In this document: positions 11,539 through 64,000 of the stretch, one piece after another
Position numbering within the stretch: the first letter of the stretch is position 1
Layout of the letters: every line of letters starts with the position of its first letter
Assembly (NCBI GenBank): GCA_001281695.1
Contig: LJIE01000001.1
Location: 502,107 to 566,106, forward strand
Source: a bacterium 336/3
GTDB lineage: Bacteria; Bacteroidota; Bacteroidia; Cytophagales; Thermonemataceae
Direction: 5' to 3'
Length of the DNA stretch: 64,000 nucleotides
The notes under the pieces: model-generated
Told to the model about the DNA's origin: nothing
Database searches by the model: none
The model's input: the letters and a program-made list of their open reading frames with translations, nothing else
Made by a program: the position numbers and the translations under genes

Positions 11539-12075
11539 CTATATTTTTTCAGAACCTTTAGATTCTAACTTCTTTTTATAAATATAGTTTAAGACTACAT
11601 TTTCTAACACTGACTCTATGGGTTTTAATGAAAGTACCAAGAATAATTTAATACCTATACTTACCCACTGATTGGCACTCACAAAATCTACGATGAGTGG
11701 CTCCAATAAAATTTCTTCAATCAAAAATAATATAATTGCTAATATTAAAACGATGGTGGTTGCTATTTTGCCTGCACGAGCTTGTGTAAGTTGATCTATA
11801 GTTTCCTGAAGTTGTTTGTTTTTGATGTCTAATTCCTGGTTTTTACCATCTAACTCTTGATTTTTTTGATCTAAAGCAGCATTTAATCTATCTAGTTTTT
11901 TTTGAATTTTATCGCTTACATTCGTAATCAGTCTCATTTGCCCAATAGCTTCCTCAAAATTATCTAGAAGTCTTCTATATTCTTCTTTTAAGTCAGTCTC
12001 TTGTAAATCAAGATTTTCCTCTATTTTCTTAGCTCTATGAAGTTCATTAACCTCTTTGATGTAAACTTTTTCCAT
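11539..12075 (-). CDS. Coiled-coil protein with C-terminal membrane spans
   Basis: A 178-residue protein. Residues 1-105 are charged and heptad-like, with repeated ELDGKNQELDIKNK-type units. These are followed by two hydrophobic segments at about 107-130 and 138-160, and a short basic tail. No signal peptide, so the coiled coil should face the cytoplasm. It lies 40 bp downstream of the ABC-F gene on the same strand and is probably expressed from it. No family recognised; a scaffold or membrane-tether role is only a guess from architecture. Confidence 0.6.
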   Translation of the reverse strand: MEKVYIKEVNELHRAKKIEENLDLQETDLKEEYRRLLDNFEEAIGQMRLITNVSDKIQKKLDRLNAALDQKNQELDGKNQELDIKNKQLQETIDQLTQARAGKIATTIVLILAIILFLIEEILLEPLIVDFVSANQWVSIGIKLFLVLSLKPIESVLENVVLNYIYKKKLESKGSEKI

Positions 12076-53454: not shown

Positions 53455-53814
53455 ATGAAAAAATACGCATTCATTTTATTGATAACATGTTCTTGTGTTT
53501 CTACAAAAAAATATAATGCTCTGAAAAGCCAAGTAGATGAAAAAGATGTAGCCCTTACAGAGGCAAAAGCTACAATATTTACATTGAATAAGCAACTGGA
53601 AGAAAGCCAAGAAGAGAAAAAAGCTCTTACACAAGATTTACGAAAACTAACTTCTTCTAAGTCTTCAGGTAAAGATAAAGACGAAAAAATCCATTCTTTA
53701 GAACAAAAAATAAAAGATTTAGAATCCAAAATTGCTTATCTTGAAAAGAATCAGGGTTCTACCAAAACCAATGGTAAAGACAATAACAAAAAAAAGCCTA
53801 AAAATGCTTATTAA
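53455..53814 (+). CDS. Small coiled-coil lipoprotein, 119 residues
   Basis: A hydrophobic leader with a Cys near residue 12-14 (Ile-Thr-Cys-Ser-Cys, lipobox-like) is followed by a continuous charged coiled coil (about 20-100) with heptad repeats, and a Lys/Asn-rich tail. It resembles the periplasmic/outer-membrane coiled-coil lipoproteins that bridge to the cell wall. The gene lies 17 bp upstream of the propeller protein on the same strand and may be co-expressed. Family not recognised. Confidence 0.65.
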   Translation: MKKYAFILLITCSCVSTKKYNALKSQVDEKDVALTEAKATIFTLNKQLEESQEEKKALTQDLRKLTSSKSSGKDKDEKIHSLEQKIKDLESKIAYLEKNQGSTKTNGKDNNKKKPKNAY

Positions 53815-53831
53815 GGCATTTGTATGAAACT

Positions 53832-56417
53832 ATGAGGTATTTTTTAGCCTTCTTATTCTTTGTATTATTTTATACAGCATATCCTCAAATTTACCCTTTC
53901 CGCCATTATGGTTTAAAAGAAGGTTTACCTGAGTCTAATGTAAATGCCATCACAGAAGACCATAATTCCTTCATTTGGATAGCTACACAAGGTGGGGTAT
54001 GTAAATTTGATGGTAGAAGTTTCATTAATTTTTCAACAACACAAGGACTTTTAAATAATGTTGTGCACCATGTGATAGAAGACAAAAACTATCATATTTG
54101 GGCTGCAACAAGGCAGGGTATTGCTCGATTGGTTGGTGATAAATTTGAGGTGTTTACGGAAAAACAGGGACTTGTAGATGATGATGCCAATTATATTTTA
54201 GAAGATAAAAATGGAAACATTTGGGTCGCTACTAATGGAGGTTTGAGTAAATTTGATGGAAAAAGATTTGTTAACTATACCACATTTCAAGGATTACCAA
54301 GTAACCAAATATTCTCTTTATGGCAAGACCATAGAAACTTAATTTGGGTAGGTACAGATAAAGGTGTTTGTCGATTTGATGGAAAAACCTTTGAAACATT
54401 TACAACTGAAGATGGTCTTCTTGATAATACGATTAATTGTATTTTTCAAGATGCAAAACTTAATTTATGGTTTGGAACACCTAAAGGAGCCTGTCGCTTA
54501 AATAATTTAGATGGAAAATTTGAAGATTTCTCTGAAAAACAAGGAATTACAGGGTCTATTAATGCTGGACTAAAAGATAAACTCAATCAGATTTGGCTTA
54601 CTTCTGATGAGGGAGTATATGTTTTACAAGACAGTATTCTAAAAGAAAAGATATCCCCTAAAAATGGCTTGTCTGGAGATTTTATCAATTGTATTTTACA
54701 AGATAATAATGAAAATATTTGGTTTGGGGGAAATTTAGGAGTTTCCAAAATTACCAATAGACGTTTTATGATTTTAGATGCTGGGAACGATTTACTCAAA
54801 AATGTTCCTGTTACAGCCACTATAGAAGATAAAAAGGGGAAAGTTTGGATAGGTACAAGTAACCATTTATTATCCTATGAAAACAAAAAAATAACCATCG
54901 AAAAAGCTGAGACAAGTGTAAGGAGTTTATTTCTAGACTCTAAAAATAGTTTATGGATAGGGACAATAGGAGATGGAGTGTTGCAAATTAAAGAAGGGAA
55001 GTATAAAAATTATACAACAAAAGAGGGGCTCCGAGATAATACTATTTATTGCATTGCTGAAGATGACCAAGGACGAATTTGGTTAGGAACAGATAAAGGT
55101 CTTAGCCGTATTGAAACAAATGGAAAAATAATAACTTTTTCCGAAAATCAGGGTTTAGCTGATAACTATGTCAGATGTATGCTGAAAGATAACAATGGAA
55201 TTATGTGGTTTGGAACTTATAGAGGTTTGAGCAGATTTCAAGATGGTGTTTTTCAGAATTTTACAACAAAAAATGGTTTAGCTAACAATATTGTTCTGTC
55301 AATAACTCAAGACTCTAAAGGAACAATTTGGCTTGCAACAGAAAATGGGCTTTGTCAAATGAAGCCCAATGTTGATTATAAACAAGCAGATGCTTTTATT
55401 AATTACACTAAACAACATGGATTAGCTTCCCAAAACTTATGGGGAATTATTGAAGATGGTGAAGGAAATCTATGGATAGGGCATCGTAATGGAATAGATA
55501 AGTTCAATCCTTCCAATAAAAAAATTAAAAACTATGGATATATTGATGGTTTTTCTTTGATACAAACTTATCCAAATGCACTTAATAAAGACAGAAGAGG
55601 CAATATTTGGATAGGAACTTTTGGTGGATTGGTGAAGTATTTTCCTTATGAAGATATTCCAAATCCAAATCCTCCAACTATTCACTTAATAGACGTTCGT
55701 TTATTTAATAAAAAAACAGACTGGAAAAACTATTCTGAGCTACTTGACCCAGATTTTGGGATACCTCTCAGTAAGGTATCAAGTGAGATAGCTGTAAAAA
55801 TGCCTTATAATGAGAATAGCATCACTTTTGAATTTGTGGGGGTTCATTTTACAGTTCCCGAAAGAATACGCTATCAGTATAAATTAGAAGGTTTTGATAA
55901 AGATTGGTCAGATAAAGATGTTACTAATATTGCAACTTATACCAATTTACCACCAGGCAAGTACAATTTTTTGGTAAGAGCTTATAATAGTGATGATATA
56001 GGTAACCCACAACCTTTATCTTTCAAATTTCAAATAGACTTGCCTTATTGGGAAAAATGGTGGTTTTACCTTTCTGAAATATCATTTTTCTTGGCTCTTA
56101 TACTCATCTCTTTATATTTAGGATTCACACGCCGTAGCTCCAGATATACTTTGGTTTTGGCATTTACAACCCTTTTGATGCTTTTTGAGTTTGTCAATGT
56201 TTATATTGAAAATTTTATAGAAAGCTATACTGGTAATATTCCTATTTACAAAGTACTGGCGAATGTGATTTTGGCAACAGTCATTGCTCCATTTGAGAAT
56301 ATGCTCAAAAACTTCTTGTCACCTCAAAAACCTGTTGTAAGTGAAGAACTTGTTTCTCCAGATAGGTTTAATAGAGATGATTATGAGGTTGGAAACCCTA
56401 ATCAAGATTTGGTTTAA
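53832..56417 (+). CDS. Propeller/triple-tyrosine sensor without kinase domain
   Basis: The start is set at the first ATG (53832); the four codons upstream begin with TTG and are not part of the leader. The 861-residue protein has a signal peptide, then about 13 two-component-regulator-type propeller units over residues 20-610 (repeated IWIGT/ATNGGLSKFDGK). A Y_Y_Y domain follows at about 660-735 (RYQYKLEGFDKDW, NLPPGKYNFLVRAY). In relatives a histidine kinase or LuxR follows; here it is three membrane spans (about 742-763, 775-795, 810-840) and a short tail. Role: likely extracytoplasmic sensing with an unknown output. Confidence 0.85.
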   Translation: MRYFLAFLFFVLFYTAYPQIYPFRHYGLKEGLPESNVNAITEDHNSFIWIATQGGVCKFDGRSFINFSTTQGLLNNVVHHVIEDKNYHIWAATRQGIARLVGDKFEVFTEKQGLVDDDANYILEDKNGNIWVATNGGLSKFDGKRFVNYTTFQGLPSNQIFSLWQDHRNLIWVGTDKGVCRFDGKTFETFTTEDGLLDNTINCIFQDAKLNLWFGTPKGACRLNNLDGKFEDFSEKQGITGSINAGLKDKLNQIWLTSDEGVYVLQDSILKEKISPKNGLSGDFINCILQDNNENIWFGGNLGVSKITNRRFMILDAGNDLLKNVPVTATIEDKKGKVWIGTSNHLLSYENKKITIEKAETSVRSLFLDSKNSLWIGTIGDGVLQIKEGKYKNYTTKEGLRDNTIYCIAEDDQGRIWLGTDKGLSRIETNGKIITFSENQGLADNYVRCMLKDNNGIMWFGTYRGLSRFQDGVFQNFTTKNGLANNIVLSITQDSKGTIWLATENGLCQMKPNVDYKQADAFINYTKQHGLASQNLWGIIEDGEGNLWIGHRNGIDKFNPSNKKIKNYGYIDGFSLIQTYPNALNKDRRGNIWIGTFGGLVKYFPYEDIPNPNPPTIHLIDVRLFNKKTDWKNYSELLDPDFGIPLSKVSSEIAVKMPYNENSITFEFVGVHFTVPERIRYQYKLEGFDKDWSDKDVTNIATYTNLPPGKYNFLVRAYNSDDIGNPQPLSFKFQIDLPYWEKWWFYLSEISFFLALILISLYLGFTRRSSRYTLVLAFTTLLMLFEFVNVYIENFIESYTGNIPIYKVLANVILATVIAPFENMLKNFLSPQKPVVSEELVSPDRFNRDDYEVGNPNQDLV

Positions 56418-61448: not shown

Positions 61449-61479
61449 TTGTTTATTAGCAATAACTTTCATAGATTTA
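61449..61479 (+). promoter_or_regulatory. Candidate promoter of the second propeller gene
   Basis: TTG at 61449-61451, 20 bases, then TAGATTTA at 61472-61479 (one mismatch to TAnnTTTG). Confidence 0.3.
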
Positions 61480-61499
61480 CTATTACACCACAAAACATT

Positions 61500-64000
61500 A
61501 TGCTACGTTTTCTTTTCTTTTTTTTCTTTCTAAATATTTCTGTTTTTGCTCAAAGGGGTAATTTATTGGTAAAAAACTATAAACTGCCATCCGTTCCACA
61601 AGTGACAGATATTGTTCAAAATAGTAAAGGGATTTTATATTTTGCCCATTCAGGTGGGATACTGAGTTATGATGGTTTTAGATGGGATGACATTAATTTA
61701 GAAGTAAACGCCCATAGTTTAGCCATTGATAATAAGGATATTATATATGTAGGTGGGAAAGAGTTCTTTGGAAAGATAGAGCCTAACCAAATAGGAAAAT
61801 TAGAATATTTTAACCTTTCGTATGAGCAAAAACAAATTGGAGATATTATTGATATTGCAGTTTTGGAATCTCAAGTTCTATTTTATAGCTCAAAAGGCGT
61901 TTTTAGTTATGCCAATAGTCAAATAAAAACTCTTTATAAATTTCAGAAAGAAGAATTGGCAGGCTGGGCTGTATTGAAAGAAGATATATTCTTAAACTTG
62001 CCAGAAAAAGGATTTTGTAAACTTTCTAATGGCAATGTAACATCAATAAGAACTGATTTTGTAGAAAAAACAATATTAAGTTTTATTCCTTTTGATAACC
62101 AAAGTATATTAATAGCAACAGACGATAATACATTATGGCTTTGCGATGGTAAAAATATCTATCCTTTTCCTACTTATGCTACAGAATATCTGCAAAATCA
62201 TTTTCTGGAGAAAATGACAGACTTATCACCTCAAGAGTTTGTCATTTCTACACTTGCAGGAGGGTCTATTATTGTTAATAAAAAAGATGGGAGTATCAGA
62301 CAGATTATTAGCTATGAAACAGGTTTAGCGGATAATGAAATTAGTGCTGTATTGGTAGATAAACAACAAGGATTATGGTTATGCCATACAGAAGGAGTTT
62401 CAAGAGTAGCATTAAATCTACCTGTATATAATTATGGACATTACCCTGGCATTGAGGGCAAACCATCTACAATTACAAAAATAAAAGACTTATTATATGT
62501 AGGAACAAACTCAGGATTGTTTTATTTGAGTTATAGCAACAAAGATGATGTTTCTGGACAAGTAGCAGCTGAAAAACAAAGACAACTCCAGCAAATAGCT
62601 TGGCAAAGAGCCCAAAACCGGAAAAAAACCTTACTCCAAAAACTAAATTCTCTTAAAAAAACAGAAGATAAGACACCTAAAGTAGTAACAGTAGTTGTAG
62701 AATCGAATGTGTATAACTACAATTATAGTAATTATTTGTTGGAGAAAACACCTTATAACTTTAGAAAAATAAGTGGAGTAGATGGAAAATGTAAACAACT
62801 TATCCAATTTCAGGAAAAAGTTGTTGCTCTTACTAATACGGGTTTATATGAAGTGCAATTTGGAATAGCTACTCAAATCTTTGAAGATAGAAATTTATTG
62901 TATGCTGAAGTTTCTAAAACTAATTCTAATCTATTGTATGTAGCTACTGAAAAGGGAGTTATCATTCTTCAAAAAACTGCTATTGGTTGGCAAAGTACTC
63001 CTGTTGCAGATATACAGGATACAGTATTTAATTTAACACAATATGAAAATAATTTGTGGGTAGCTGGTGAGGGCAGAATATGGAAAATAAAACTTAATTT
63101 ACAAGGCTTCCCTGAAAAAACAATTTCATATACATTAGAAAATAAAAATCTAAAAACGTTTGTAAGGGTTATTGAAAAAGAGGTGCTTTTCTTTACTAAT
63201 TTTGGTGTGCTAAAACAACAATGGATTGTAGGAGATATTTTTATCCCAGATGTCAAATTGCAACACTACAATTTAAAAGGCAGTAAGTTTTATACAAATC
63301 AAGATGCTTATATTTGGGCAACAGAAGGAATAGAGTATAAAGAATTAAGTGGGAAACCTGTTCTTTCATCTCAATTTTTAGCTATTATTCCTAATATTGA
63401 GGATATTTATTATGATGCTCAAAAAAACTTATGGGTAGTCAATTCAAATGGTATTTATCGAATTTATCCACAAGAAAACAAATCTTATGCCCCTGACTTA
63501 TTCATAAAACAAGTTCAGAGTGGAAATGGAGTATTACAACAATTGGGAAAAGCAACAATAGAAAGTAATGGTAGTATCCAAAATTTTCAAATTCAGATAG
63601 CTTCTCCATTTTTTATTGCAGAAGAAAATACACAGTTCCAGTATTATTTAAAAGGTTTAGATGATTCAGATTGGTCTCCTTGGAGAAGTCAAGCTTTGAT
63701 AGAATTTCCGTATTTACCAAGTGGAGAATATGTTTTAAAATATCGTTCTAAAAATGCTTTAGGAGAACTTAGTCCAACTCAAACATTTGTTTTTGAAATA
63801 GAATCTCCATTTTGGCAAACATGGTGGTTTTACCTTATGCAAATAGGAGTTTTATTTGGCTTGTTACTGACAGCAGTAATTTATAACAGGAAAGGAGCAG
63901 AATCACGTGTGGCTTCTGTTATTACTTTGGTGGCAATTATTACAGTGTTTGAATTGTTGTTCTTACTTATAGAACCATTAATTGATAATTTTTCTGGTGG
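61500..64000 (+). CDS. Propeller/triple-tyrosine sensor, second copy (3' end outside window)
   Basis: Open from the ATG at 61500 to the window edge (833 codons), so the stop is outside. A signal peptide (about 1-18, cut after Val-Phe-Ala) is followed by propeller-like units (GILYFAHSGGILSYDGFRW and similar). A charged Gln/Lys-rich insertion (about residues 355-405) interrupts the propeller. Near 700-770 a Y_Y_Y domain appears (QYYLKGLDDSDW, YLPSGEYVLKYR), then WWFYLMQIG and at least two membrane spans. It matches the architecture of the propeller protein 5 kb upstream. Whether a kinase follows cannot be seen. Confidence 0.8.
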   Translation, partial: MLRFLFFFFFLNISVFAQRGNLLVKNYKLPSVPQVTDIVQNSKGILYFAHSGGILSYDGFRWDDINLEVNAHSLAIDNKDIIYVGGKEFFGKIEPNQIGKLEYFNLSYEQKQIGDIIDIAVLESQVLFYSSKGVFSYANSQIKTLYKFQKEELAGWAVLKEDIFLNLPEKGFCKLSNGNVTSIRTDFVEKTILSFIPFDNQSILIATDDNTLWLCDGKNIYPFPTYATEYLQNHFLEKMTDLSPQEFVISTLAGGSIIVNKKDGSIRQIISYETGLADNEISAVLVDKQQGLWLCHTEGVSRVALNLPVYNYGHYPGIEGKPSTITKIKDLLYVGTNSGLFYLSYSNKDDVSGQVAAEKQRQLQQIAWQRAQNRKKTLLQKLNSLKKTEDKTPKVVTVVVESNVYNYNYSNYLLEKTPYNFRKISGVDGKCKQLIQFQEKVVALTNTGLYEVQFGIATQIFEDRNLLYAEVSKTNSNLLYVATEKGVIILQKTAIGWQSTPVADIQDTVFNLTQYENNLWVAGEGRIWKIKLNLQGFPEKTISYTLENKNLKTFVRVIEKEVLFFTNFGVLKQQWIVGDIFIPDVKLQHYNLKGSKFYTNQDAYIWATEGIEYKELSGKPVLSSQFLAIIPNIEDIYYDAQKNLWVVNSNGIYRIYPQENKSYAPDLFIKQVQSGNGVLQQLGKATIESNGSIQNFQIQIASPFFIAEENTQFQYYLKGLDDSDWSPWRSQALIEFPYLPSGEYVLKYRSKNALGELSPTQTFVFEIESPFWQTWWFYLMQIGVLFGLLLTAVIYNRKGAESRVASVITLVAIITVFELLFLLIEPLIDNFSG

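Follow-up and report, generated by a model that had tools for sequence, protein, structure and literature searches.

A 64,000-nt stretch of the genome of bacterium 336/3 (Bacteroidota; Cytophagales; assembly GCA_001281695.1, contig LJIE01000001.1, positions 502,107 to 566,106), called the window here, carries on its forward (+) strand at 53832..56417 a gene for an 861-amino-acid (aa) propeller/Y_Y_Y sensor that ends in three helices and has no kinase. We consider it probable that this protein is a BT4663-type sensor whose kinase has been replaced by a conserved two-helix transmembrane (TM) hairpin, TM2-TM3, which acts as its output. The hairpin was found at the C-terminus of four kinds of protein, built on propeller/Y_Y_Y domains, TPR repeats, a receiver domain or a stalk in proteins of about 175 aa.

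Architecture of the sensor

The gene is defined by its reading frame, translation and Pfam matches. Its frame is intact, running from an ATG at 53832 to a stop codon that ends at 56417, with an in-frame TTG upstream of the ATG at 53820. Residues 1-19 (53832..53888) resemble a signal peptide, judged by eye from the translation alone, and are followed by a propeller region at residues 20-665 (53889..55826), where Pfam found 13 Reg_prop stretches (E 4e-65). The nearest solved structures are two-component sensor ectodomains, with E 1.3e-72 for 4a2l, the BT4663 ectodomain. A Y_Y_Y domain occupies residues 673-735 (55848..56036; Pfam E 4.7e-18), and its model matched the BT4663 structure 4a2m in Foldseek at 45% identity over 62 columns. 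Downstream lie TM1 (residues 737-766, 56040..56129), the core TM2-loop-TM3 module delimited by profiles and alignments (residues 767-830, 56130..56321), and a C-terminal tail (residues 831-861, 56322..56414) that is of low confidence in the AlphaFold model. This model of residues 671-861, based on 8 sequences and of moderate confidence overall (mean pLDDT, predicted local distance difference test score, 68), contains the Y_Y_Y strands and helices at 739-766, 770-799 and 803-829.

Pfam at E up to 1 found no kinase, GGDEF or LuxR domain in the 861-aa protein, and together with the model this bears out the first-pass annotation, which had described a propeller/Y_Y_Y sensor with three spans and a stop in place of these outputs. 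That annotation had also treated the three spans as one module; three helices are indeed predicted, but the first is the usual TM helix of hybrid sensors. Profile matches confined to TM1 fell in open reading frames (ORFs) of about 700-1175 aa, mostly about 1000 aa, one of them a kinase of the source genome. These matches identify TM1 as part of the ordinary hybrid-sensor platform and TM2-TM3 as the distinctive part.

A Y_Y_Y search of the source genome gave 9 matches, 8 of which were covered by the kinase and Pfam scan, the ninth being below the family cut-off and left out. Kinase domains (HATPase_c, His_kinase or HisKA_3) were present in 6 of the 9, with Y_Y_Y visible in Pfam at E 1e-4 for five of these six. 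Two of the 9 lack a kinase and end in the hairpin, namely the window protein and a second propeller/Y_Y_Y/hairpin protein that is cut at the window edge (61449..64000, + strand) and measures 919 aa in the genome (paralogue L082). An identity of the 861-aa protein as PorZ of type IX secretion was considered and rejected, with 116.1 bits to NCBIfam NF052228 against a cut-off of 260.

Conservation of the intact C-terminus

Five relatives with complete genes were compared with the window protein, from Raineya orbicola (L042), three metagenome genomes (L043-L045) and Thermonema rossianum (L046). They are 856-901 aa long, share 47-66% identity with it by BLAST and have the same layout, which was judged without Pfam on these five; a kinase in them is unlikely because 856-901 aa leave no space for one. 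Identity to the window protein over TM2-TM3 was 75, 75, 56, 64 and 48% in L042 to L046, respectively, compared with 66, 65, 48, 45 and 47% over the propeller, and TM2-TM3 was conserved at least as well as the propeller in each of the five pairs. The tail was 58% identical in L042, 52% in L043 and 16-23% in L044-L046. A frameshift or a truncated kinase was ruled out by these intact relatives of similar length. The gene is complete in the window and no edge artefact, as had been claimed at first pass, and the alternative of a kinase lost from the frame is contradicted by the five proteins of the same layout.

Wider searches showed how far the C-terminus extends. Its 128 aa were found in 43 of 148 Cytophagales genomes and 30 of 80 genera (a few rows partial), and a hairpin-only profile at E 0.01 reached 68 of the 148 genomes and 44 of the 80 genera. 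Queries with two stalk proteins (178 and 158 aa) matched 57 of the 148, some via the stalk or the hairpin alone. A hairpin-spanning match was present in at least 17 of 395 genomes in a search of the phylum that scored up to 12 candidates per genome; the phylum totals of 164/395 and 36/395 mix in TM1-only matches and are not relied on. Among 93 distinct modules, counted from rows with a stop codon in the locus and full hairpin coverage, 90 end 0-46 aa before the stop, and the remaining three are the first halves of proteins with TPR and hairpin in tandem duplicate. The first-pass annotation had proposed conservation with intact length in many Cytophagales as a sign of a new output module.

Some members do not fit this range, weaker TPR-class ones having tails of up to 66 aa and two propeller-class proteins tails of 67-70 aa. 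Cytoplasmic tails of 36-70 aa were noted in the propeller-hairpin proteins at L238 3476-4477, L240 3915-7448 and L082 3556-6315, and those of L238 and L240 look by eye like a small helix-turn-helix-like repeat. Four hairpin genes were found in the source genome, three of them within about 53 kb (11539..12075, 53832..56417 and from 61449 on). Expansions of hairpin genes, mostly of the TPR class by length, were observed elsewhere, with 31 matches in genome G002 and at least 12, that is all scored candidates, in each of G172, G182, G212, G247, G279, G337 and G453; tandem two-hairpin fusions occur in G002, G170 and G182. None of 162 viral-contig stretches with a pattern match codes for a relative.

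No kinase gene detected beside the hairpin genes

Lacking a kinase of its own, the sensor had been proposed to signal through a partner, possibly a kinase in the next gene. This split-sensor part of the proposal found no support, since a kinase-like gene adjoined none of 55 module genes when seven kinases served as phmmer queries (E 1e-6), a screen that could miss a divergent kinase. The same screen returned three kinase-like ORFs overall, several genes off, at loci L042, L043 and L089. The absence of adjoining kinase genes also bears on the idea that the kinase-less proteins are decoys, which would pair with kinase-bearing paralogues in mixed dimers and so weaken or divert their signalling. 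Kinase-bearing Y_Y_Y relatives are available for this in the same genome; the specific sequence of the hairpin is conserved, however, which a decoy would not need, and we regard the decoy explanation as very unlikely.

Four input classes carry related hairpins

Proteins of the TPR class, mostly 460-600 aa long, begin with a leader-like segment, continue with TPR repeats and a coil, and end with TM1 and the hairpin; Pfam found TPR in 9 of 9 tested, two of them tandem fusions. One TPR version (L164) appears by eye to be without TM1 or leader. Response_reg was found in all three receiver-class proteins tested (L211, 4.3e-23; L213, 2.8e-25; L215, 4.2e-27), with the hairpin in the same chain and in one case a PAS domain as well, and L212 was placed in this class on likeness alone. 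Two ORFs of 125 aa (L235 and L236) combine a weak hairpin match with an extra hydrophobic stretch.

The hairpins of the four classes are kin in sequence. For each class, a profile of the hairpin alone was searched against 3172 ORFs, in groups that include near-duplicates (after removal, propeller falls from 65 to 45, TPR from 57 to 54 and stalk from 31 to 28, with four receiver proteins); the TPR group holds a few propeller-type rows. With the propeller profile, 57 of 57 TPR, 22 of 31 stalk and 1 of 4 receiver hairpins were recovered at 1e-3. Other ORFs start near E 0.1, and the stronger matches outside the groups are truncated or stalk-class module proteins. Profile-profile comparison of hairpins alone (hhalign) gave 99.6% for propeller and TPR, 98.4% for stalk and TPR, 96.9% for propeller and stalk (E 1.3e-10), 95.6% for receiver and TPR and 99.7% for receiver and stalk, the lowest pair being propeller and receiver at 65.6%. 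A tree of 117 hairpins clusters by input class, with 8 changes against a shuffled mean of 54.8; built on 66 columns and 117 rows, it has weak deep branches and informs on class clustering only.

Certain residues recur throughout. The 93 propeller/TPR-class sequences have the TM3 Pro in 100%, an Ala in 94%, a TM2 Glu in 92% and a loop Pro in 91%, and in 92% a Glu or His stands two residues past that TM3 Pro. The TM3 Pro, an acid preceding the loop and the [E/H] at the end of TM3 are common to all classes. In the joint alignment, 130 of 131 hairpins have the TM3 Pro, and the position two residues beyond it is E, H, D or Q in 130 of 131. By eye, basic residues lie between TM1 and TM2 and past TM3, and acidic ones lie ahead of the TM2-TM3 loop; this charge pattern suggests an N-out, C-in orientation.

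Such conservation has to be weighed against a simpler role, in which the hairpin serves to anchor or localise sensor domains or SiaC-binding stalks at the inner membrane and the real output lies elsewhere, for example in holding SiaC. No further membrane span is predicted in the stalk or receiver proteins, for which a tether would be reasonable, no recognisable catalytic domain is present, and in propeller proteins the mean entropy of TM2-TM3 (1.95 and 1.93 bits) is close to that of TM1 (2.06 bits), indicating about equal conservation. Propeller and TPR versions nevertheless keep the hairpin although TM1 already anchors them, and a Pro in 130 of 131 hairpins, together with class-specific intramembrane Glu residues, exceeds the needs of a tether. 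We therefore consider a mere anchor unlikely.

Stalk-hairpin proteins are linked to SiaC

The stalk-hairpin protein of the window (11539..12075, - strand; 178 aa) was found at E 9.8e-6 in the phylum search with 54 modules and carries the motif VSDKIQ, which resembles a SiaC contact. It has no GGDEF domain and no Pfam family at E 0.001, and its gene stands alone between a lipoprotein-like and an ABC-F-like gene (both by eye). A relative of 158 aa is encoded after SiaC (Pfam 3.2e-37) and after a second protein that has SpoIIE and DUF6272 domains and, by eye, a receiver-like start. At 23 of the 30 best stalk-hairpin loci, SiaC lies immediately upstream on the same strand or is fused, the SiaC-stalk-hairpin fusion being that of L192/L214, and a SiaB-like ORF is present at 21 of the 30. 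SiaC is absent within 1500 bases of the window's stalk-hairpin gene (L171), as it is for all four copies of the window's genus; seven SiaC genes lie elsewhere in the source genome.

As described in PMC8457831, S82, D83, R84 and Q86 of Pseudomonas aeruginosa SiaD contact SiaC. The pattern SD[RK]xQ, which was picked after the sequences and these contact residues had been viewed, occurs in 30 of 31 stalk proteins, in none of 57 TPR, 65 propeller and 4 receiver proteins and in 16 of 3015 other ORFs. The stalk motif thus matches the SiaC-contacting residues of SiaD, and SiaC binding is predicted for these stalks. A single-sequence model of the stalk protein has one helix running from the stalk through TM2, followed by a second helix; on this model a stalk bound to SiaC could transmit directly into the hairpin.

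A kinase is found on a similar stalk. The stalk profile, but no hairpin, matched eleven ORFs of about 340 aa, each with a kinase-like H-box; both that were tested contain HisKA and HATPase_c, and phmmer shows homology of all of them to the first. Since the kinase sits on a similar stalk, hairpin and kinase appear to be alternatives there, and nothing else hints as strongly at an output role of the hairpin. The first-pass annotation had left two options, relay through a partner or a module that is itself the output. At least four kinds of signalling protein with the hairpin and the apparent exchange of kinase and hairpin on the stalk favour the latter.

A proposed mechanism and the evidence against it

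Taking the hairpin as output, a ligand at the periplasmic propeller/Y_Y_Y part would shift TM1, and the short cytoplasmic turn would hand this shift on to TM2-TM3. The hairpin, probably a dimer, would then switch state and engage a membrane partner, the contact being made via the conserved polar residues and the cytoplasm-facing end past the TM3 Pro. In sister proteins, TPR repeats, a receiver domain or a SiaC-binding-like stalk carry a related hairpin. Most likely, the hairpin is an output module that these proteins share; we infer further that it acts as an effector, that it dimerises and that it has partners, which the proteins may have in common. A broader version, which we hold tentatively and at somewhat below even chances, makes the hairpin a general output of Bacteroidota, with receiver, SiaC-switch, TPR and propeller sensors converging on one common membrane effector that replaces DNA-binding, kinase and cyclic di-GMP (c-di-GMP) outputs.

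Several observations weigh against this interpretation. Detection across classes is uneven: at 1e-3, propeller and TPR hairpins were recovered in 21 of 65 and 18 of 57 cases with the stalk profile, and in 0 of 65 and 2 of 57 with the receiver profile. The kinship test itself is partly circular because members were recruited with related profiles. SD[RK] is present in 7 of the 11 stalk-kinase ORFs and the full SD[RK]xQ in 2 of 11, and the stalk-hairpin model comes from a single sequence and is of low confidence in its membrane part. Structure searches gave no analogue of the hairpin; in the PDB, the sensor model matched Y_Y_Y-type ectodomains best, and the stalk-hairpin model had zero matches. 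No partner emerged from 40 loci, with no other neighbour family in more than 4 of the 40. Of 99 propeller/TPR hairpins, 91 have an acid in column 16 of TM2, where the stalk/receiver classes are hydrophobic; column 19 is Glu in all 31 stalk/receiver hairpins with letters there, and column 41 of TM3 is Asn in 65 of 99 propeller/TPR hairpins and Lys in 32 of 32 stalk/receiver hairpins. The alignment thus divides the hairpins into two sub-families, propeller/TPR and stalk/receiver, with predicted membrane Glu residues one helical turn apart, and because the TM2 Glu and column 41 differ between classes, it is less certain that all hairpins share one binding surface. An apparent shift of the TM3 Lys by about one turn was also seen, from K37 (33 of 45 propeller and 23 of 54 TPR hairpins) to K41 (stalk/receiver).

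The same membrane residues would suit hairpins that assemble as oligomers to form a channel for ions or protons, which the attached sensor would gate and which would act directly on the membrane. The conserved TM2 Glu is accompanied by Lys or Asn in TM3, a cytoplasmic output domain is absent, and tandem-hairpin proteins exist. The searches made returned no sequence or structure match to any channel, however, and we regard a channel as improbable.

Library matches raise a further alternative, that the hairpin is a very remote relative of the lipid kinase DgkA with a lipid substrate. The hairpins of the window's propeller and stalk proteins match no Pfam or NCBIfam model above its cut-off. Among 21 modules examined singly, one (L015, of the propeller class) exceeded a Pfam cut-off, with 23.2 bits to DAGK_prokar against 22.3 over positions 20-89 of 102, which also counts against the hairpin as a new output. 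The re-check comprised 20 of the 25 other members (L027, L029 and L032-L034 left out), and no other Pfam family passed in these 20. Across all 26 modules, 6 match DgkA at E up to 1, another module than L015 reaching 21.1 bits, and the E-x2-N-x3-E-x3-E of the window protein is in register with DgkA. Against this, the window module itself scores 15.1 bits, below the cut-off, hhalign gives 3.3%, from three DgkA sequences only, and the Asn of the motif is poorly kept (propeller 9 of 45, TPR 13 of 54) and is Glu in the stalk/receiver classes. The charge pattern moreover predicts that the hairpin motif lies outside, and the acidic motif of DgkA lies on the opposite side. A role as lipid kinase thus appears extremely improbable, and an output hairpin with a membrane partner remains our preferred explanation.

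Other genes near hairpin genes

Directly 5' of the sensor gene, at 53455..53814 (+ strand), lies a gene for a 119-aa coiled-coil putative lipoprotein with the start C-V-[SP]-x-x-K-Y (lipobox by eye). Such a gene, a partner that the first-pass annotation had not named and the one conserved neighbour of the sensor gene in its closest relatives, occupies the same position in 5 of 5 relatives that cover this side, with gaps of 8-184 bp. We guess that its product may link the outer membrane or the wall to the sensor.

Genes of other kinds were noted beside TPR-hairpin genes. Three tandem related genes, one with a caspase domain (PF00656), adjoin such a gene at L098 9338-15505, and a homologue is beside another TPR-hairpin gene in a second genome (L099 4653-6416). 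Two adjacent FG-GAP proteins of about 985 aa with type IX secretion tails are encoded directly 5' of the source genome's own TPR-hairpin gene (L083 1176-7154). PADLOC gave no match for the window proteins and, for other proteins, returned generic TPR, caspase and one weak match.

Relation to known systems

We found no account of the hairpin in the literature, as covered by open-licence papers. Its input platforms are known, the libraries searched contain no model specific to the hairpin, and a common effector, if true, would make this a new kind of output. If the hairpin is an output, current annotation overlooks the output of several Bacteroidota sensor platforms, and hairpin-ended propeller, TPR and receiver proteins would be misread as truncated kinases or unknowns. 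It would also show what the SiaBC switch drives where a membrane protein of about 175 aa fills the slot of the cyclase. As a shared module, the hairpin turns its own binding and action into a testable question.

The window protein has the same propeller, Y_Y_Y domain and TM1 as the hybrid two-component sensors BT4663, BT3049 and BT4673, and differs from these in ending with the TM2-TM3 hairpin instead of HisKA, HATPase, receiver and helix-turn-helix domains. From DgkA (PF01219), which the hairpin matches weakly with the acidic motif in register and L015 just over the cut-off, it is set apart by a window module under the cut-off, the hhalign value of 3.3%, an unconserved Asn and the opposite predicted topology. 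The TPR-hairpin protein of the source genome matches positions 128-380 of the 618-position model of FimS-type TPR histidine kinases (E 4.4e-28), but has no match to the kinase half and reaches 97.9 bits against a cut-off of 600; two other TPR-hairpin proteins match this model weakly. The relation to SiaABCD of P. aeruginosa is one of gene order and motif: stalk-hairpin relatives follow SiaB-like and SiaC genes and bear the SiaC-contact motif, whereas in the window the stalk-hairpin gene has no SiaC gene next to it and the propeller protein is without the SiaD-like stalk motif. Where SiaD, as described in PMC8457831, ends in a GGDEF cyclase, the stalk-hairpin proteins end in the hairpin.

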